NCBI GenBank assembly: GCA_001767575.1
Contig: MELI01000071.1
Location: 7,112-20,865 of the forward strand
Length of the DNA stretch: 13,754 nt
DNA from: Candidatus Aquicultor primus
GTDB lineage: Bacteria > Actinomycetota > Aquicultoria > Aquicultorales > Aquicultoraceae
Direction: 5' to 3'
The notes under the pieces were generated by a model. That model was not told the origin of the DNA and did not search any database. It was given only the letters and a program-made list of their open reading frames with translations. Made by a program: the position numbers and the translations under genes. Shown here piece by piece: positions 325 through 11,187 of this stretch. Position 1 is the stretch's first letter; each line of letters begins with the position of its first letter.

Positions 325-411
325 TACAGTAGCATTATTGCCGTAAATCGTGAATTATTGCAGTATAATAGGGTACTGTAGCTTGACTATTTAGCGTTTA
401 ACAAATAAACT
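325..411 (+). promoter_or_regulatory. Promoter/operator region of the BlaI-M56-peptide-rSAM operon
   Basis: Two promoter readings are possible: a perfect TATAAT at 364-369 with no good -35, and TTGACT (383-388) with a 17-bp spacer and TAAACT (406-411). The region also holds an inverted pair, TACAGTA (325-331) and TACTGTA (374-380), and a direct repeat ATTATTGC at 334 and 354, exactly 20 bp apart. BlaI/MecI repressors bind TACA/TGTA-type dyads, so these repeats are candidate operators for the first gene product. Which promoter is used is not decidable by eye. Confidence 0.4.
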
Positions 412-445: not shown

Positions 446-850
446 ATGGAAAAAGAATCGCGAACCCGCAAGAGGTCTAAGAAGTTAGGTATTAACGGCC
501 TAAGCACACTCGAAGCCGATATCCTGGATATCGTCTGGCAACACAAGAAGATCACCGTGCGAGAGGTCCATGAGACGATGCTCGAAGAAGGCTACATACC
601 CTATACGACGGTTATGGCCGCCATGAACAACATGTCGCAGAAAGGCCTGCTGAAGCAGAACAAAGACGGTAAAGCGTATGTCTACTCGGCTTCGATATCG
701 CGGGATAACACAGCAAAGGCCATTGTCGATTCGGTCGTCAACCGAATTCTTGGCGGCGTTTCAACACCGCTCGTTTCGCACTTACTTAAACTTAAGAGCA
801 ACGATGATGTCGAGAAACTACTTGAGCTAAAGAAACAATTGAATAAATAG
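446..850 (+). CDS. BlaI/MecI/CopY-family transcriptional repressor, first gene of the peptide operon
   Basis: A 134-residue protein of the usual BlaI size. A basic N-terminal tail (residues 1-15, RTRKRSKK) precedes a winged helix (about 18-82) that begins with the family signature LSTLEADILDIVW and contains GYIPYTTVMAAMNN in the recognition-helix region. Residues 84-134 are the C-terminal dimerisation part. The start is secured by AAAGGAGG at 431-438, 7 nt before the ATG. BlaI proteins repress their own operon as dimers and are inactivated by proteolysis triggered by an M56 partner, and the next gene, 43 bp downstream, is such a partner. I infer autoregulation of the whole cluster. A paralogue sharing the PYTTVMAAMNN stretch lies at 3712-4104. 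Confidence 0.9.
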   Translation: MEKESRTRKRSKKLGINGLSTLEADILDIVWQHKKITVREVHETMLEEGYIPYTTVMAAMNNMSQKGLLKQNKDGKAYVYSASISRDNTAKAIVDSVVNRILGGVSTPLVSHLLKLKSNDDVEKLLELKKQLNK

Positions 851-893
851 CTATTCCGCGAAGACAAGTTTTCGGCTAATAAGGCGGTCGACT

Positions 894-1943
894 GTGCCAG
901 TCTGGCAATCGCTTTTATATAATCACATCATACCATCTATCTTCGATGCGGCGGTCATGCTGCTGCTTGTATTGATTGTCTTTACTATTTTTCGCGTCAA
1001 GAATCCTGCGACCAGATTTGTCTTTCTCTTTCTGCCTATGCTAAAATCATTTCTAATTTTGCTCGACAACCCGTCTCAAGTGCAGTTGCTGCAGTCAGAG
1101 AAAGCATTGCAAAAGGTACTTCGCTTCCCCGACCCTTTGAATCTCATAACATCGCCCTTAAATGAGGTCGCAGAGTTCAGTTACAGCTCTGATGCCGTCG
1201 TTTTAGTCCTGCTAGTCACGGGAGTCTCAGTGCTTGCAGTCATCGCGGCTAGGTGGCTGCAGTTGTTTCTCTTCTTCAACAATTTCAGTCGCGAAGAATC
1301 TCTCAGCAGGTCTGAGTATCCGCAGGTTTATGATATCCTAGATAGGCTCGTTCCTGCGCTTGGAGTCTCATATCCCCGCGTTGTAATTTCCAATTTATAC
1401 CAGTTTGTACCCTTTAGTGTCGGCTATAGGGTGCCGATAGTCGTAATATCAAAAGAGTTTCTCGCCGAATTTCCAGATGAGCAGCTTGAAATAATGCTGG
1501 CCCACGAGCTAGCACATATGCGACGGAAAGACTATCTTACAAGTTGGCTCACGCTTATGTTGCGGGATCTTATGTTCATAAATCCTATCATTCACTATAT
1601 CTATAATAAGCTTGAGGACGAAAAGGAAAAAGCCTGTGACAGGCTTGCCCTTAACGTCACGAGCGCCGCACCAAAAACAGCCGCAAACATGCTTTTAGAT
1701 GTGGCACTCTTCTATAGCAAACAACCAGTGCTTCAGCATCAAACCTATCCAATGCTCGCTAAAGGCCTTCTGCTGCGCCAATCCAAGCTTGAGCATAGAA
1801 TAAACTCGGTAAAACAGTCACAACGAATGAAGAAATCCTCTTATCTGCGAACTTTGTTAAGAACCACCCTCTTTGTCCTCCTTGTCTACGTGCAAATCGG
1901 TGTCATCGTTAATATCGGTGGCCACAATATCTTTCTTCGCTAA
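894..1943 (+). CDS. M56-family (BlaR1/MecR1-like) integral-membrane zinc metalloprotease lacking a sensor domain
   Basis: A 349-residue protein with hydrophobic segments at about 15-33, 41-57, 101-128 and 319-341. The gluzincin motif HELAH is at residues 204-208, and a downstream EKACD (245-249) supplies the probable third zinc ligand E245. This is the M56 layout, cytosolic catalytic domain between membrane segments. BlaR1/MecR1 continue after the last helix with a penicillin-binding sensor of over 200 residues; here the chain ends about 8 residues after the helix, so there is no beta-lactam sensor. The start is GTG at 894 with a weak AAGGCGGT Shine-Dalgarno at 881-888. Its place between a BlaI repressor and a peptide precursor allows two roles: inactivating BlaI, or cleaving the modified peptide. 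The sequence does not decide between them. Confidence 0.88.
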   Translation: MPVWQSLLYNHIIPSIFDAAVMLLLVLIVFTIFRVKNPATRFVFLFLPMLKSFLILLDNPSQVQLLQSEKALQKVLRFPDPLNLITSPLNEVAEFSYSSDAVVLVLLVTGVSVLAVIAARWLQLFLFFNNFSREESLSRSEYPQVYDILDRLVPALGVSYPRVVISNLYQFVPFSVGYRVPIVVISKEFLAEFPDEQLEIMLAHELAHMRRKDYLTSWLTLMLRDLMFINPIIHYIYNKLEDEKEKACDRLALNVTSAAPKTAANMLLDVALFYSKQPVLQHQTYPMLAKGLLLRQSKLEHRINSVKQSQRMKKSSYLRTLLRTTLFVLLVYVQIGVIVNIGGHNIFLR

Positions 1944-1990
1944 TCTTTATACCTATCTCTTCTTGTTTTATTCCTACTCTTACAGCCAAA

Positions 1991-2001
1991 TAAGGAGGTG
2001 A
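1991..2001 (+). promoter_or_regulatory. Maximal Shine-Dalgarno of the peptide precursor gene
   Basis: TAAGGAGGTGA is an 11-nt perfect complement of the canonical 16S rRNA 3' end, 5 nt before the GTG at 2007. It is the strongest ribosome binding site in the window and marks the short downstream reading frame as a truly translated, probably highly expressed, gene. Confidence 0.85.
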
Positions 2002-2006
2002 GTTAA

Positions 2007-2111
2007 GTGCTATCTCTCAATAGGGACGACATGCTTTGGGATGCAATCGTCGCGGATGAGCTATGCGCGGAAAACGCGGCTTCCTGCTGTTGGGCTATTT
2101 GTTGGGGCTAG
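2007..2111 (+). CDS. Putative Cys/Trp-rich RiPP precursor peptide (34 aa)
   Basis: A 34-codon frame starts at GTG 2007 behind the 11-nt perfect Shine-Dalgarno and stops at TAG 2109-2111. The first ~23 residues are acidic and look leader-like, with a predicted amphipathic stretch DDMLWDAIVADEL. The C terminus is a compact core SCCWAICWG with cysteines at 27, 28 and 32 (a fourth at 20) and a repeated Cys-Trp step (28-29 and 32-33). Immediately downstream is a radical SAM/SPASM maturase whose Shine-Dalgarno begins at the second base of this stop codon, implying coupled translation. By position, size and composition it is the likely substrate; thioether links from the cysteines or Trp modification are possible. 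I do not recognise it as a known precursor family. An internal ATG at 2031 would give 26 residues but lacks a good ribosome site. Confidence 0.8.
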   Translation: MLSLNRDDMLWDAIVADELCAENAASCCWAICWG

Positions 2112-2120
2112 GAGAACGTT

Positions 2121-3491
2121 GTGATGAGAGTCAATGAGCGAATATTAACCTACCGTATCTCAGAAGAGGCGTTTCTGCTTCTAAACACATTAACGGGAGC
2201 AATCGACATTACCACCCCGCAGATCTATGATGCACTCGAGAACTTCTCTGCTGTACAACATTTAACACTCGATGAATTCACGAAGGAACGGCTAAGAAAA
2301 AGGGGCTACATTTTCGATAGCCCAGACGACGAGACGCGCTGGCTGCAGCTTATTAAGGATGCTCACGGCAAGCAAGAAAAAACTCTCGACTATATCGTGA
2401 GCCTGACCTATAACTGCAACTTAAGATGCGCCTATTGTTTTGAGGGTGACTTGACTTATACCCGCAGAAACTACATGGACATCGATGATGTCCAACATGT
2501 CTTTGCCGCTATTGATGAGCTAAGCGATGGATATAGTAATCATCGTAAGCTGATCAAGCTATTTGGCGGTGAACCTTTATTACCTCGCAACAAGCAAGCC
2601 ATACGTCGTGTGCTCACTGAAGCGCGTCAAAGGTCTTTGCCGGTTAGTGCTGTAACAAACGGTACTTACGCTAATGACTATGCCGACCTGTTTGATGAGT
2701 TTGCGGACGTCATTGTAGCAGCACAGGTGACACTTGACGGGTCTAAGGAGATACACGACTCGAGGCGAAAGTCTCACGATGGGCGTGGCAGCTTTGATGA
2801 CGTCTGCGCTGCTATCGAAATGTTTCTCGCTAAGAATATCAAAATCAACGTCCGCACCAATTTAGACATGCAAAATATTGGTCGATTACGTGAGCACTTT
2901 GACCTGTTAGTGACAAAAGGATGGATGGATAACCCTGACTTTGGATGCAGCCTATCACCCGTAGAGGACCATTCGTGTAGTGGAACATATGCGTTCTACC
3001 TTCCAGAGAATCTGCTAGTGAAGGAATTCTATGATCAAGTCAAAGAATCACCAGAGATGGCAGATGCGTTCAGATTAGGTCTCTTTCGAAACTTGAAGCA
3101 TATCAAGTCAGTCGTGAACACAAGCCGACCAGTGCTTCCGCTTCTCCACTACTGCGAAGCCAACAATCTCGAACACATTGTCTTCGGGCCGGACGGATAT
3201 ATTTATCCCTGTACCGAATGCTTGGGTCGACCTGATTTGGCGATGGGTAAGTTCCATCCTCAGCTCGAGATGTTCGATGACGTTGTGAAAATGTGGAATG
3301 GTCGCAATGTCCTGCGGATGAACAAGTGCCGCGAATGCGATATTGCCCTTCTCTGCGGAGGCGGATGCGCATATTCGGCGCTCGTCGTAAACGGTGATAT
3401 CAACGAGCCCGTCTGCAACAACGCTCGGGAGACCATATTCGCTTACCTTGACTACATCAAAGCCGATCTAGCCGACAAAGCAAGCGCCTAG
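2121..3491 (+). CDS. Radical SAM/SPASM-domain peptide maturase
   Basis: A 456-residue protein in three parts. Residues 1-90 are an N-terminal region typical of peptide-modifying SPASM enzymes (LTGAID near 24-29, RGYIF near 61-65). The radical SAM core has CNLRCAYC with cluster ligands C99, C103, C106 and the SAM-binding GGEP at 149-152. The C-terminal SPASM domain has C345-X13-G-X4-C364, then C403-X2-C406-X5-C412-X3-C416-X15-C432, close to the SPASM consensus for two auxiliary [4Fe-4S] clusters; C367 is extra. Such enzymes install crosslinks or other radical modifications on ribosomal peptides. The start is GTG 2121 (or ATG 2124), with AGGAG at 2110-2114 overlapping the precursor stop codon. 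It is the last gene before the terminator at 3500-3534. No transporter or separate peptide-binding protein is seen in the operon. Confidence 0.93.
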   Translation: MMRVNERILTYRISEEAFLLLNTLTGAIDITTPQIYDALENFSAVQHLTLDEFTKERLRKRGYIFDSPDDETRWLQLIKDAHGKQEKTLDYIVSLTYNCNLRCAYCFEGDLTYTRRNYMDIDDVQHVFAAIDELSDGYSNHRKLIKLFGGEPLLPRNKQAIRRVLTEARQRSLPVSAVTNGTYANDYADLFDEFADVIVAAQVTLDGSKEIHDSRRKSHDGRGSFDDVCAAIEMFLAKNIKINVRTNLDMQNIGRLREHFDLLVTKGWMDNPDFGCSLSPVEDHSCSGTYAFYLPENLLVKEFYDQVKESPEMADAFRLGLFRNLKHIKSVVNTSRPVLPLLHYCEANNLEHIVFGPDGYIYPCTECLGRPDLAMGKFHPQLEMFDDVVKMWNGRNVLRMNKCRECDIALLCGGGCAYSALVVNGDINEPVCNNARETIFAYLDYIKADLADKASA

Positions 3492-3499
3492 GAACACGG

Positions 3500-3534
3500 A
3501 AAGCGGGGTCCACTTTGATTGGACCCCGCTTTTT
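3500..3534 (+). terminator. Rho-independent terminator of the peptide operon
   Basis: Perfect 12-bp stem AAAGCGGGGTCC (3500-3511) and GGACCCCGCTTT (3521-3532) around a 9-nt loop, with the T run continuing to 3534. It starts 9 nt after the maturase stop codon and closes the transcription unit before the second BlaI gene. Confidence 0.93.
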
Positions 3535-3560
3535 CTATTCAAACAATGTACGAACTTCTC

Positions 3561-3590: not shown

Positions 3591-3711
3591 TGTTTTCTGA
3601 GATATTATTCGTTTAGTATCTATGCAGCCCAGCGCAGTCTTGGTTTGTTGTACGCAAGTTTAGCCCTAGTGTCACGATAGGCATACTATGGGAAGAGCGG
3701 AGGTTATTTTA

Positions 3712-4104
3712 TTGGTACGAACTAAAAGAAAACGCAGAGTAAAATTGAACGGATTAAACGAGCTTGAAACCGAAATCATGCAAATAGTGTGGACGAGAGG
3801 CAGAACAACTGTTCGCGATGTTCATGAAGAACTCCTTTTGGTAGGCTATACCCCGTATACAACGGTCATGGCGGCAATGAACAATTTGGCCCAAAAAGGT
3901 GTTCTGAAGCAGGACAAGAAGGATAGGGCTTACTCCTACAAGCCGGCTGTCAGCAGCGCACAGATGGCGAACGATATTGTCGACAACGTAATTGACAAGA
4001 TTCTGGGCGGTTCGGCAAGTCCCATCATCTCTCATCTCTTGAAGCTCAATGGCGAAGATGAAGTAGTAGAGATATTAGAACTCCGCAAAAAGCTCCAGTC
4101 GTAA
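3712..4104 (+). CDS. Second BlaI/MecI-family repressor paralogue (TTG start)
   Basis: The protein has 130 residues from the TTG at 3712. I chose this start because GCGGAGG (3697-3703) sits 8 nt upstream and the resulting basic N terminus (VRTKRKRR) aligns with that of the first BlaI protein; an in-frame ATG at 3688 would add 8 residues but has no ribosome site. The winged helix (about 14-78) carries GLNELETEIMQIVW and the stretch PYTTVMAAMNN shared with the paralogue at 446-850; the C-terminal half (from about 80) should dimerise. It has no M56 partner of its own. It may co-regulate the neighbouring peptide operon, form heterodimers with the first BlaI, or control a distant target; the sequence does not say which. 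Confidence 0.88.
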   Translation: MVRTKRKRRVKLNGLNELETEIMQIVWTRGRTTVRDVHEELLLVGYTPYTTVMAAMNNLAQKGVLKQDKKDRAYSYKPAVSSAQMANDIVDNVIDKILGGSASPIISHLLKLNGEDEVVEILELRKKLQS

Positions 4105-5464: not shown

Positions 5465-5968
5465 ATGGTCGTTTCTCCATATAATATCCTCATGGCACTC
5501 GAAGATTATAAGCAGAAAAGAAGTTTTGATAAGACCCCGGAGCCGAGCGGCGAATCCGGTACGGAGCATGGTGGACGGTTTGTCGTCCAAGACCATCACG
5601 CCAGTCACCACCATTATGACTTCCGCCTCGAGCTACCTGCCGACTACTTTGAGTCGGATGAGCCCTCCGGTGAGATGGTACTTAAGAGCTGGGCCGTCCC
5701 CAAAGGGATATCTACCTCCAAGGGGGTCAAGCGACTCGCTGTGATGGTCGAGGACCACCCGGTCGACTATATCGATTTCGAGGGGACGATTCCTGAGGGC
5801 CAGTATGGAGCCGGCACCGTCGCTATTTGGGACTCAGGGACCTTTGAGATCGCTCAGAAAAAGCCTAGCAGTCTCAAAATCATCCTCAAGGGCAAGCAGC
5901 TGGAAGGCGAATTCCATCTCGTCCACACCAAAAAGGGCAAAGGCAACGAGTGGCTTGTTTTTAAATAA
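5465..5968 (+). CDS. Stand-alone LigD-type 3'-phosphoesterase domain protein
   Basis: A 167-residue protein that matches the N-terminal 3'-phosphoesterase module of bacterial LigD (trims 3'-phosphate or ribonucleotide ends during end joining) but carries no ligase or polymerase part. Key motifs: RFVVQDHHASHHHYDFRLE (38-56) with probable catalytic H44, D52 and R54, followed by SWAVPKG (75-81), H98 and GTIPEGQYGAGTV (107-119). The spacing of H44/D52/R54 equals that of the described Pseudomonas LigD H42/D50/R52. The ATG at 5465 has no clear ribosome site; the family usually begins near MALEDYKQKR, so ATG 5492 (158 aa) is an equal candidate. No Ku or ligase gene is nearby. Function in DNA repair is inferred from the family. 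Confidence 0.88.
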   Translation: MVVSPYNILMALEDYKQKRSFDKTPEPSGESGTEHGGRFVVQDHHASHHHYDFRLELPADYFESDEPSGEMVLKSWAVPKGISTSKGVKRLAVMVEDHPVDYIDFEGTIPEGQYGAGTVAIWDSGTFEIAQKKPSSLKIILKGKQLEGEFHLVHTKKGKGNEWLVFK

Positions 5969-7416: not shown

Positions 7417-8163
7417 CTATGATTGTTCCCGGGCGGTTAGCGCGGCGCCGAGCGCCCCGGCTATCTCGGGATGGTCATAGCGGTAGAGCATACGACCGAG
7501 CTTCTGCTCAAAGAGCTTTTGTATGCAGGAGTTGTAGCCTACCCCGCCGGAGAGAACGATATCATCGGCAATACCGACGCGATGGAGCATCGAGCTGACC
7601 CGCTCGACGACGGACTGGTGCAGGCCGAGGCCGATGTTTCGAGGCTCTTCCTTTTTAGCTAAAAGCGAGACGACCTCCGATTCCGCAAAGACAGTGCACA
7701 TGCTGTTCACTTTGACCGCCTTGTCGGCTTTGAGTGACTCTACCCCGAACGCATCGAGTGAGAACCCGAGTGTCTTCGCCATAACTTCTAGGAACTTGCC
7801 GGTGCCTGCGGCGCAGCGGTCGTTCATCTGGAAATCAGCGACTCTACCCTGCTCGTCTAGGGCGATGACCTTGCTGTCCTGCCCACCTATGTCGATGATC
7901 GTGCGGCAGCCGGGAAAGAGGTGCCGCGAGCCGATGGCATGTGCTTTTATCTCGGTAATCACGCTGTCGGCGAAGTCATCGCGCGCGAAGTGGCGACCGT
8001 AACCGGTCGCCACTATCTTCTGCGCATTATAGGATTTCATAAGCTCTAGCGAACGCTCGTGTGGGTTAAAACCGGTATCGACGACCTTGAAATCAGCGAT
8101 TCCCTCTCCGTTGAGTGCGACTACTTTTATACTGCGTGAACCTATATCGATACCGACAAACAC
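7417..8163 (-). CDS. ATP-dependent activator of a 2-hydroxyacyl-CoA dehydratase/double-cubane reductase (BcrA/BadF/HgdC family)
   Basis: A 248-residue ASKHA-fold ATPase. GIDIGS (4-9) is the phosphate-1 loop, DIGGQDSK (91-98) the second phosphate motif and LSGGVG (204-209) the adenosine site. C117 (in NDRCAAGTG) and C156 (in NSMCTVFAESE) are the two cysteines per subunit that hold one [4Fe-4S] cluster across the homodimer. Family members use ATP hydrolysis to fire low-potential electrons into a partner Fe-S protein. The GTG start directly abuts the TAA of the upstream reductase gene (zero-base gap), with AAGGAG about 11 nt before, indicating coupled translation. It is the last gene of this unit. 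Confidence 0.93.
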   Translation of the reverse strand: MFVGIDIGSRSIKVVALNGEGIADFKVVDTGFNPHERSLELMKSYNAQKIVATGYGRHFARDDFADSVITEIKAHAIGSRHLFPGCRTIIDIGGQDSKVIALDEQGRVADFQMNDRCAAGTGKFLEVMAKTLGFSLDAFGVESLKADKAVKVNSMCTVFAESEVVSLLAKKEEPRNIGLGLHQSVVERVSSMLHRVGIADDIVLSGGVGYNSCIQKLFEQKLGRMLYRYDHPEIAGALGAALTAREQS

Positions 8164-9459
8164 TTAGACAATCGCTCCTTGCGTCTCTTTGATTTGCTCC
8201 ATGAACGCCTCGACCCTCGTCGAGAGCTGGCCGGCGTCCTCCATGCTGTAGTCGGTCTCTATCTTTAAGACCGGCACGCCTGCGTATTTGAGCGTCCTCT
8301 CTACGCTATTATACTCCACGGTAAACGGGTCGCAAAACTGGAGCGCGTAGTGGATGACACCGTCGACCTTGTAATCTTCGACAAGCTGCATGATATTATC
8401 GAGTCGCTCCTTGTTCGGTGTGAAGCACGCGCAGTCGAGCTTCATGTAGCGATCGGCGACCGCCGTGAGTTCACCCTCGAGGTCGCTCGGGCTCTCGTCG
8501 ACCATATCCCTGAAGTAGCGGTGGCCGATGCAGGCCTCTTCGCCGACAATGATAGCGCCGGTCGACTCGACGATGTGGTGCATCTTCCAGTTCGGAATGG
8601 CCATCGGGCAGCCCGAGATAAGGATGCGCGGCGCATCCGCCGGGGCGACACCGACACCATCGGCGATTCTCTGCTCCAGCTCGTCGCTGACCTTGTTTAT
8701 CATCTGGGTGAAACGCACCGGGTCGTCGTAGAAAGCGACCTGCTCAATAAGGAGCGCGTCTTTGCCGCTTATCGGTACCGGGCTCGCCTTGCGTGCCTCG
8801 TTCATACGCTTGAGTGCGGCCCGCTTCGCATTTACAGTTGCGACACCTTGTGCAAGCGCGGCTGCATCGATAGTGTTGCCGGTAAGCTCTTCCATCGTCG
8901 CTTTGAATTTCTTGACCTCTTCGAGCCAGAGCTTGCGGCTGGCGTCATCTTTGGTCTGCGGCGTATGCATGACGTGGACGTTCGTGTATTCGCCGAGAAC
9001 CTCGTAGCTCTTCTTCTTGCCGTCGCAGGTCGTCTCACCGACTATCATGTCGCTGGATTCGAAATATGGGCAGACCTTGGTGAGTTTAAAGCCAATGAAC
9101 GACTTGATGAGCGGGCACAAGTTTCGGGGTAGCACCTTCTCGGCTTCCGCAGTGCCCCAGTCGGCGCCGCCGCAGATGCCGACACAGGCCGCACCTCCGG
9201 CGAGTACGACTTCCTCCGGTACATAGAGGCAGAATGCGCCTACTACCTTGCCGCCCGCCTCGCGCAAGTCATTGAGTTCCTTGACCCTCAAGCCGTGAAT
9301 CTCGGACATGACAAAGTCGAGATAGGCCATGCCTTCGGGGCGATTCTGCTGGCTCATGTAGATATCCCCGTACATCTGAGGTATCACGGCGAGAAGTTGG
9401 TCGTGGGCTTCGAGGTCGAGGCCGAGCTCTTCCCACATTTTGCGATAATCTTCGGACAT
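8164..9459 (-). CDS. Double-cubane-cluster-type anaerobic reductase (HgdB/2-hydroxyacyl-CoA dehydratase superfamily)
   Basis: The protein has 431 residues from ATG 9459, chosen because AAGGAGG lies 6 nt upstream; a longer in-frame start at 9498 has no such site. Eleven cysteines (77, 92, 96, 115, 130, 145, 284, 310, 343, 345, 376) lie in conserved contexts such as CVGICGG, RNLCPLIKS, CPYFESSD, ETTCDGKKK, SGCPMAIPNW and QFCDPF. This pattern, a single large subunit rather than the HgdA/HgdB pair, and the activator directly behind it, fit the double-cubane-cluster proteins described in Carboxydothermus, which couple ATP hydrolysis to low-potential reduction and can reduce small molecules such as acetylene; the physiological substrate is unknown. 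An ordinary 2-hydroxyacyl-CoA dehydratase subunit is the alternative but would normally have a second subunit gene. Confidence 0.87.
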   Translation of the reverse strand: MSEDYRKMWEELGLDLEAHDQLLAVIPQMYGDIYMSQQNRPEGMAYLDFVMSEIHGLRVKELNDLREAGGKVVGAFCLYVPEEVVLAGGAACVGICGGADWGTAEAEKVLPRNLCPLIKSFIGFKLTKVCPYFESSDMIVGETTCDGKKKSYEVLGEYTNVHVMHTPQTKDDASRKLWLEEVKKFKATMEELTGNTIDAAALAQGVATVNAKRAALKRMNEARKASPVPISGKDALLIEQVAFYDDPVRFTQMINKVSDELEQRIADGVGVAPADAPRILISGCPMAIPNWKMHHIVESTGAIIVGEEACIGHRYFRDMVDESPSDLEGELTAVADRYMKLDCACFTPNKERLDNIMQLVEDYKVDGVIHYALQFCDPFTVEYNSVERTLKYAGVPVLKIETDYSMEDAGQLSTRVEAFMEQIKETQGAIV

Positions 9460-9538
9460 GTGTTTCCTCCTTGATTGATCATGAGTTCCATGCGACACAG
9501 TTGCAGATTTCTATTATCAGTTAATGGCAATAATAGTT

Positions 9539-10276: not shown

Positions 10277-10693
10277 TTAATGGTTGTGGTGGCCGCCACC
10301 GCAGCCCTTGCAGCCGCCGCTAGAGCGTGCCAGCGTGCCTGCGACATATGCCATGACCGCGACATCCGGGTCGCTCTCGGACGTGACGACCGGGTCGATG
10401 CCGGCACCTTTTAGCGCCGCGATCATGCCGCCTCCGGCGCCGTTGGTGATGACCGCCGAGACGTCGGATATCGACCCGACTAAGCCCCCGTGGTGGTCGC
10501 CATTGTGGTTCGCGCGATTATGGTCATGTTCTCCGTGTTGGTGATGGTCTTGCGGGCTATGTACCGGTGTTACGCTGCGAATCTCTTTTGAGACAATCGA
10601 CCCGTTATCCACCTCATATACCAAGAATTTGCTGACATGCCCTAGATGGCCGCAGACTTGCGCGCCATCTTCCGTAGATACTGCTATTTTCAT
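10277..10693 (-). CDS. NifX/NifB-C-type Fe-Mo-cofactor-binding-domain protein with His-rich insertion
   Basis: 138 residues. The fold signature of the dinitrogenase iron-molybdenum cofactor family (PF02579) is clear: MKIAVSTEDG at the start, GHLGHVSKFLVYEVD (15-29), ITNGAGGGMIAALKGAGI (82-99) and a C-terminal GGCKGCGGGHH. A His/Asn/Asp-rich loop at about 45-68 holds eight histidines, and the tail adds C128, C131 and three His, both likely metal ligands. AGGAGGT about 7 nt before ATG 10693 fixes the start. Stand-alone members in non-diazotrophic anaerobes are thought to carry metal or Fe-S clusters and are often next to DUF134 genes, as here (76 bp downstream of DUF134). A role in cluster delivery is inference. 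Confidence 0.9.
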   Translation of the reverse strand: MKIAVSTEDGAQVCGHLGHVSKFLVYEVDNGSIVSKEIRSVTPVHSPQDHHQHGEHDHNRANHNGDHHGGLVGSISDVSAVITNGAGGGMIAALKGAGIDPVVTSESDPDVAVMAYVAGTLARSSGGCKGCGGGHHNH

Positions 10694-10769
10694 CTTAACT
10701 ACCTCCTGTTGATTCTATGGGTGCTCCGTCACTTCGGCGAAGCATCTGCGTCGCTTCAAAGCCTTTTAC

Positions 10770-11147
10770 CTATAGCTTCCCCGCACACACCGGGCATCCC
10801 TCGGACTCTCTTGCATGCCACCGGTGCCCGCAGGCACAACGTTTGCAGACATCTGCTGTTATCGCGTAGACGCCTCCTTCAATGCGAATCGCTTTCCCAT
10901 TGACCAGGGCGTCGCTGATCTTTGCCCTGGCCGAGCGCAAGATTCTCTGAAACGTCGGTCTTGAGATATCCATGCGCGCTGCGGCCGATGCCTGGTCTAG
11001 CCCTTCAAGGTCTTTCAGACGCACCGCTTCGAGTTCCTCGAAACCGAGCACGACCTCCTCGAGCATGAACGCCGGTATGCCTCGCGGCTTAAATAGCTCG
11101 ACATCGGGTTTTGATTCTATCCGGCGACACTTGACCGGCCTCGGCAT
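10770..11147 (-). CDS. DUF134 (UPF0251) family DNA-binding regulator with C-terminal zinc ribbon
   Basis: The protein has 125 residues from ATG 11147 (GAGGGG 7 nt upstream; an in-frame start at 11177 would lie inside the operator palindrome and give an atypical N terminus). It begins with the family hallmark MPRPVKCRRI, has LEAVRLKDLEGLDQASAAARM leading into a sigma-70-region-4-like helix-turn-helix (about 51-75, ISRPTFQRIL), and ends in C101-x2-C104-x-C106 and C118-x2-C121, a probable metal or Fe-S binding ribbon. The family is predicted to regulate neighbouring NifX-like/Mrp genes. A strong promoter and a perfect 20-bp palindrome sit directly upstream, pointing to autoregulation of this gene and the NifX-like gene behind it. 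Confidence 0.9.
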   Translation of the reverse strand: MPRPVKCRRIESKPDVELFKPRGIPAFMLEEVVLGFEELEAVRLKDLEGLDQASAAARMDISRPTFQRILRSARAKISDALVNGKAIRIEGGVYAITADVCKRCACGHRWHARESEGCPVCAGKL

Positions 11148-11167
11148 GTGCGTGCCCCTCTCAAGAT

Positions 11168-11187
11168 TTATGAGCATATGCTCATAA
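11168..11187. promoter_or_regulatory. Perfect 20-bp palindromic operator before the DUF134 gene
   Basis: TTATGAGCAT followed by ATGCTCATAA, a perfect palindrome 21 bp upstream of the DUF134 ATG and just downstream of its -10 box, so it would cover the transcription start. A matching half site (TTATGAG on the minus strand, plus 11207-11213) lies in the promoter spacer, 20-odd bp away. This is the best-defined operator in the window and most probably binds DUF134 itself. Confidence 0.75.

Follow-up and report, generated by a model that had tools for sequence, protein, structure and literature searches.

A predicted RiPP cassette of Candidatus Aquicultor and other Actinomycetota with a three-cysteine precursor family, a radical SAM/SPASM maturase and an M56 protease

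Introduction

What is a 34-residue peptide rich in cysteine and tryptophan doing in an operon that opens with a repressor and a membrane protease and closes with a radical S-adenosylmethionine (SAM)/SPASM enzyme? The question is raised by a 13,754-nucleotide stretch of contig MELI01000071.1 (the window, by which we mean that whole stretch), from a Candidatus Aquicultor-like genome of the class Candidatus Aquicultoria. Its plus strand carries one operon composed of blaI, a short M56 protease gene, the peptide gene and a radical SAM/SPASM gene. From the letters alone, the original prediction had read these genes as a new system for a ribosomally synthesized and post-translationally modified peptide (RiPP). 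We followed the operon through the family, class and phylum, and conclude with a probability of roughly 0.7 that it is a RiPP cassette whose SPASM-modified peptide is handled by the M56 protease at the membrane, under BlaI control where BlaI is present.

The components resemble known systems. The pairing of a BlaI-type repressor gene with a downstream gene for a membrane M56 zinc protease recalls BlaI–BlaR1 (MecI–MecR1); in the cassette, however, the protease has no penicillin-binding sensor, and the peptide and maturase stand in place of a beta-lactamase. An enzyme with a RiPP recognition element (RRE), a radical SAM and a SPASM domain, a small cysteine-rich precursor and broad conservation within lineages are shared with the SCIFF peptides and ranthipeptides, of which CteA–CteB, Tte1186 and freyrasin PapA–PapB are examples. 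The EpeXEPAB epipeptide system of Bacillus also encodes a membrane protease beside a radical SAM-modified peptide. In the literature searched, which covers few subscription papers, we found no description of the cassette, and nothing joining M56 with SPASM or Aquicultor with radical SAM. The accessible part of a report on C. difficile elements treats BlaR1/BlaI and a radical SAM cluster separately (PMC6807378).

Results

The operon and its peptide

The four open reading frames (ORFs) were recovered where the original prediction had placed them, and a profile scan confirmed their domains. The first, blaI (446–850), encodes a winged-helix repressor of 134 residues (PF03965, E 1.1e-25, 90.7 bits against a cut-off of 22.6), and is followed by the gene for a BlaR1-like M56 membrane zinc protease of 349 residues with an HELAH motif (894–1943; PF05569, E 4e-24, 85.8 bits, cut-off 31). 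The precursor gene (2007–2111), recognized by the conserved peptide family and its codon-position pattern, precedes the maturase gene (2121–3491; PF04055, 59.6 bits, cut-off 29.5; TIGR04085, 53.2 bits, cut-off 27), whose residues 1–86 form an RRE-like N-terminal domain (2124–2381). Spacings of 43, 63 and 9 bp agree with these coordinates. The strong terminator that had been proposed downstream of the maturase is also borne out: the fold of 3492–3537, which contains the intrinsic terminator closing the operon (3498–3534, plus strand), has a stem of 15 pairs, −25.7 kcal/mol and a z-score of −6.5, equalled by none of 200 shuffles. A simple terminator scan of the window did not list the hairpin after 3491.

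The peptide starts at a GTG preceded by AAGGAGGTGAGTTAA, and consists of a leader (MLSLNRDDMLW...) and a core (SCCWAICWG) with a putative border between them. When 10 family peptides were aligned, M1, L4, D7, LWD, the CC pair and the third cysteine were present in all, and S3, S26 and a tryptophan after the third cysteine in nearly all. A leader MxSLNxDxxLW and a core CC[WF]x2-4C are common to the wider set of peptides; Met1, one leader tryptophan and three cysteines are invariant in 33 aligned sequences. CC[WF]-x(2-4)-C is found in 47 of 47 peptide strings, a count that is partly by construction since several peptides were recognized through the motif or its profiles, and is followed by W, F, I, L or Y. 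At least one peptide enters the 47 strings twice, with two start choices, and in longer ORFs (L022, L031, L056, L063, L095, L096 and others) the start was placed by the conserved leader. None of 23 peptides scanned matches any NCBIfam model.

Conservation extends to the N-terminal half of the peptide, which is mostly free of cysteine. Over leader codons 2–12 of eight family loci, the window included, there are 63, 58 and 126 differences at codon positions 1, 2 and 3 respectively (308 codon comparisons). Variation is thus greatest at the third position, as expected if the peptide is translated and under selection.

Distribution and gene order

The maturase occurs once per genome (E ≤ 1e-20) in all 11 family genomes searched, at 47–100% identity. 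One Candidatus Aquicultor contig (L009) carries the same maturase, its best segment being 100% identical, and a contig of another Actinomycetota bacterium encodes one that is 95% identical to that of the window. In nine of the ten relatives the locus includes sequence ahead of the maturase, and each of these shows the window's gene order of blaI, M56 and a Cys/Trp peptide; in the tenth, G009, a contig break falls where the maturase begins, and a second contig ends with blaI, M56 and the beginning of the peptide. A profile of the family peptides matches all 11 family genomes with one peptide hit each. Run against 396 genomes of the phylum, this family-only profile also finds G333 (E 6.4e-7) and G161 (2.5e-4), both in cassettes.

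Among the 36 genomes of the class, the maturase is present in 18 (E ≤ 1e-40), the peptide in 19 (E ≤ 5.2e-8, with the profile extended by eight non-family peptides) and the cassette-type M56 in the same 19 (E ≤ 1e-20); weaker M56 matches occur in three further genomes. Every class genome with the maturase also has the peptide (Fisher p 4e-9, ignoring relatedness). Recovery of the class peptides by the extended profile is by construction for most of them; the constant company of maturase and peptide is not. A similar peptide was read at the locus in each of the seven non-family class genomes with the maturase. The nineteenth genome, G360, has M56 (at the contig edge) and the peptide on a 3.5-kb contig, only the maturase being missing.

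The cassette is also found beyond the class. The class-peptide profile matches G239, G311, G388, G139, G254 and G295 (E 2.4e-10 to 5.6e-5), none of which contributed to it; the maturase lies alongside in all six and M56 in five, the G254 peptide being at a contig edge. Of 40 genomes in the class of G139, which is probably Humimicrobiia (a database peptide of this type carries the name Candidatus Humimicrobiaceae), 9 have a match. Six of the nine are new and absent from the profile, and all six have M56, peptide and SPASM gene in order on one strand, with blaI upstream in four. The class to which G239 belongs has few cassettes: of 299 genomes drawn, 3 carry one, all three already known. Altogether it spans three actinomycetotal classes and 31 genomes (19 of the class, and 6 + 6 outside it). 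The genome searches for the peptide were confined to Actinomycetota, and the two database peptides with an organism name are both from that phylum. At L097 and L116 the cassette is cut by contig ends. The original prediction had named a genome search for the order M56–short ORF–SPASM, with alignment of the peptides, as a way of checking it; both order and peptide prove to be conserved across the three classes.

Three weaker profile matches (G256, G287 and G257; E 7.7e-4 to 0.0095) were rejected, all three having neither M56 nor maturase on the fetched stretch. Weaker matches again (E 0.013 to 0.085) stand outside the cassette counts.

In four loci (L057, L058, L060 and L063) the maturase gene runs divergently on the opposite strand, yet the peptide gene keeps its place immediately after M56. 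Such changes of gene order argue that the three genes are linked by function and not merely inherited as an operon. They also bear on a quite different explanation, in which the small ORF would make no functional product and would instead serve the downstream radical SAM gene as a Cys/Trp attenuator or translational leader, regulating it according to the supply of charged tRNA. A tiny, Cys/Trp-rich ORF 9 bp before the maturase, as in the window, would suit that role, but in the rearranged loci the peptide gene lies behind M56 and can hardly be an attenuator of the maturase. In L057, L058, L063 and L103 the ORF that follows the peptide gene runs towards it (response regulators, by eye), and the same-strand ORF that follows in L060 is about 0.5 kb on. 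We rejected attenuation on these grounds, and consider it very improbable also in view of the conserved, mostly cysteine-free N-terminal half and the third-position variation.

The maturase

The maturase has a radical SAM CX3CX2C motif (cysteines 98, 102 and 105 of the 455-residue form) and a seven-cysteine SPASM domain (344, 363, 402, 405, 411, 415 and 431), with TIGR04085 above cut-off; all ten cysteines are invariant across 45 aligned sequences. In an AlphaFold2 model with a predicted local distance difference test score (pLDDT) of 92.1, the predicted fold of the N-terminal domain is most like RREs, and by that fold we count the enzyme as RRE-bearing. The top Foldseek match of the model is 5why/5wgg, where 5wgg is the SCIFF maturase CteB, which is also the nearest solved relative by sequence.

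The best NCBIfam scores, which span nearly the whole enzyme, are those of the Cys-every-fifth maturase (CefB, 145.2 bits) and TIGR04463 (144.6 bits), yet both are far below the cut-offs of 600 and 525. It also scores below the cut-offs of the SCIFF maturase model TIGR03974 (100 against 425 bits) and of the PapB model NF047865 (123.7 against 340 bits). In a FastTree phylogeny of 146 maturases, the 26 from the loci all fall in one group, together with 81 of the 120 retrieved proteins; the tree is midpoint-rooted with several weak deep nodes, and no conclusion was drawn from it.

SPASM enzymes such as the sulfatase maturases modify other proteins, and the peptide could then be a bystander of an enzyme acting elsewhere. 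The score for the anaerobic sulfatase maturase model (TIGR03942, 68.4 bits against a cut-off of 349.45), the RRE-like domain and the co-occurrence with the peptide all speak against this. Identity as a sulfatase maturase was rejected on the same evidence, and we regard another protein substrate as most unlikely. Together, the conserved leader/core peptide, the SPASM enzyme with its RRE-like domain and their co-occurrence in relatives bear out the proposal of a RiPP system, and the peptide and the enzyme are very probably a precursor–maturase pair.

The M56 protease and BlaI

The protease had been described as sensorless, rightly so: its alignment with BlaR1 (602 residues, PDB 8exs) stops at BlaR1 residue 323. 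HELAH is kept and followed by a Glu-rich helix, and there is no C-terminal penicillin-binding sensor. Nineteen other cassette M56 proteins likewise end shortly past the last hydrophobic segment (alignment of 20, by eye), and a (R)xPDP-like loop motif is conserved in most of the 20 sequences. The blaR1_generic model gives 50.7 bits against a cut-off of 400.

M56 is kept in loci where blaI is not adjacent, and in six of seven such loci it stands directly before the peptide gene. This adjacency, together with the divergent maturases, favours M56 acting on the peptide, and we consider a direct action rather probable. The protease might instead be purely a regulator, one that cleaves BlaI in response to envelope stress or a metal, with the peptide being made on demand and processed by other proteases. 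blaI is directly upstream of M56 in all 11 family loci with sequence there, the window included, BlaI is the best conserved product of the operon, and another BlaI–M56 pair of the genome lies among cytochrome-like and membrane genes (by eye), all as a regulatory protease would have it. A purely regulatory M56 would not, however, be expected beside the peptide where blaI is not adjacent, nor in exactly the 19 class genomes that have the peptide, and we find it unlikely, though deserving of weight. M56 is accordingly the constant third partner of the cassette and BlaI a frequent regulator.

The additional pair just mentioned (L106, 2858–4251 of G000:C100) has an M56 with a Cys-rich tail, GSCGMGPECAAENYECCK. 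Multihaem cytochrome-like, CcdA-like and Cys-containing membrane proteins and an FtsX-like permease surround it (by eye), and it is possibly a metal- or redox-sensing relative.

The product of blaI is 77.6–99.3% identical in the ten other family loci. Between the window and L022, identity is 98.5% for BlaI, 58.7% for M56 and 61.6% for the maturase. Upstream of blaI there is a promoter-like TTGACT-17-TAAACT (383–411, plus strand), whose TTGACT is kept in nine of ten aligned family loci, counting the window and leaving out the near-identical L024. Within it lies TTTAACAAATAAAC (397–410), a candidate BlaI operator with the inverted repeat GTTTA-ACAAA-TAAAC. A promoter scan of the window, with 8 found against 6.3 expected, is no evidence by itself. 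By analogy with the BlaI–M56 paradigm, BlaI is likely to be the (putative) repressor of its own operon. When the genome was searched for a BlaI regulon with this one 14-base pattern at up to one mismatch, only the one site was found. The strong conservation of BlaI contrasts with this single candidate operator.

A second blaI-type repressor gene, possibly accessory, lies downstream of the operon (3688–4104, plus strand; PF03965, E 1.2e-24, 87.3 bits, cut-off 22.6). It is present in all nine family loci, the window's among them, that have sequence beyond the maturase; the other two of the 11 stop at a contig end. L026 also has a second M56 gene near the operon.

Neighbouring genes

ORFs of at least 90 residues were clustered across 15 loci in 10 groups. 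Only the maturase and M56 recur in all 10 locus groups; response regulators are found in five, and kinase-, permease- and other genes in two or three. No exporter or immunity gene recurs widely in this clustering. An FtsX-like permease (by eye) lies some 3 kb from the cassette in two groups (L056 and L061), and L055 has a lone ABC-type ATPase (by eye) about 3 kb off, so that single genomes may have an exporter.

These neighbourhoods bear on whether the cassette makes an antimicrobial, a bacteriocin-like sactipeptide or ranthipeptide for which M56 and BlaI would provide self-sensing of envelope damage. BlaR1 relatives classically respond to envelope-active compounds, and the core is hydrophobic and rich in cysteine and tryptophan. 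Against such a product stand the single maturase and single peptide hit in each of the 11 family genomes and the lack of a widely recurrent exporter or immunity gene, and we judge it improbable. Conservation throughout the family and the absence of a recurrent exporter lead us to favour a signalling or housekeeping role over an antibiotic one, as has been argued for SCIFF, whose spread across Clostridia is taken as an argument against an antimicrobial role in the accessible part of one source (PMC8326336).

Ten other ORFs of the window were scanned and no beta-lactamase was found. The window also encodes a stand-alone LigD 3'-phosphoesterase domain protein of 167 residues with neither ligase nor polymerase domain (5465–5968; PF13298). 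Its minus strand carries a BadF/BcrA-type ATPase and 2-hydroxyglutaryl-CoA dehydratase D-component pair (7417–9498), and a dinitrogenase iron-molybdenum cofactor domain protein with a His-rich stretch that adjoins a DUF134 protein (10277–11177; PF02579).

Discussion

The cassette is best read as an RRE-dependent radical SAM/SPASM RiPP system with a new precursor family and with M56 as its constant partner. We propose that the RRE would bind the leader (MxSLNxDxxLW), and that the SPASM enzyme would then crosslink at least one of the three core cysteines to a residue close by, most probably through a thioether. The modified peptide, being very hydrophobic, would reach M56 at the membrane, where the protease would remove the leader, be switched on by the mature peptide, or both. 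Where blaI is present, active M56 would, directly or not, remove BlaI and so raise expression of the operon. Leader-guided modification is proposed because of the RRE-like domain, the SPASM anatomy and the co-occurrence of the genes, and recognition or cutting of the peptide by M56 because the two remain linked where blaI is not adjacent. In this scheme the crosslink chemistry, the cleavage and the regulation are what we infer; a peptide-dependent inactivation of BlaI by M56 is the most tentative of the steps and on balance doubtful.

The precursor differs from those of related systems. Its peptides have three to five cysteines (47 strings), three of them in a Trp-rich CC[WF]x2-4C core, and not the six in about forty-five residues of SCIFF. 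The ranthipeptide acceptors named in the accessible part of one source are Asn, Thr and Asp (PMC8326336); unlike ranthipeptides, the cassette peptides have none of these at a fixed place, and M56 belongs to the cassette. Asp, Asn, Thr and Glu are all absent from the window core, CCWAICWG. Because no Asp, Glu, Asn or Thr position is conserved and Trp/Phe is, our guess is a bond to the conserved Trp/Phe, preferred to one with an aliphatic residue, which we also considered.

Several observations weigh against the cassette as we read it. Asp, Glu, Asn or Thr occurs between the second and third core cysteines in 13 of 47 strings, and within four residues before CC in 17 of 47, including an Asn of the window peptide; judged by sequence, these peptides may have ordinary ranthipeptide acceptors. 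CteB and ChlB are level as structural matches of the maturase (Z 28.1 and 27.8), and among the 25 NCBIfam families listed the enzyme reaches the cut-off of no equivalog, so that its chemistry cannot be read off family models. G286 has a second maturase copy (L062), at a contig edge, and the stretch around it contains no peptide. The M56 gene of L055 is convergent to the peptide and maturase genes, which lie in that order. Seven loci (L055, L056, L057, L058, L063, L120 and L121) lack a blaI next to M56; BlaI may act on such loci in trans. Finally, staphylococcal BlaI is cut at an Asn-Phe pair, and the BlaI of the window has His-Leu at the aligned position.

Some details of these loci may be added. 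The L062 copy (G286:C57:57-1229) lies at a contig start, has one in-frame stop in the matched frame and is near the L063 copy in the tree. Five of the six genomes behind the loci with non-adjacent blaI have BlaI elsewhere, with a distance of about 5 kb between blaI and the peptide gene in L055, and a search of the sixth, G296 (87% complete), found no BlaI.

A bolder extension is that the RiPP universal in the Aquicultor family is an intracellular or membrane signal with a Cys-Trp (or other non-canonical) crosslink, which replaces the sensor as activating ligand or substrate of M56, M56 in turn destroying BlaI. This is speculative and rather unlikely; if true, it would amount to a RiPP-gated proteolytic switch with a new crosslink chemistry.

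The cassette defines a precursor family that has no NCBIfam model and ties an M56 protease to a RiPP, in little-known, uncultured bacterial lineages. Its 31 genomes supply natural variants for the study of leader binding, crosslink chemistry, protease specificity and BlaI control. The finding bears on what sensorless BlaR1-like proteases respond to, and on why some RiPPs, SCIFF among them, persist across whole lineages.

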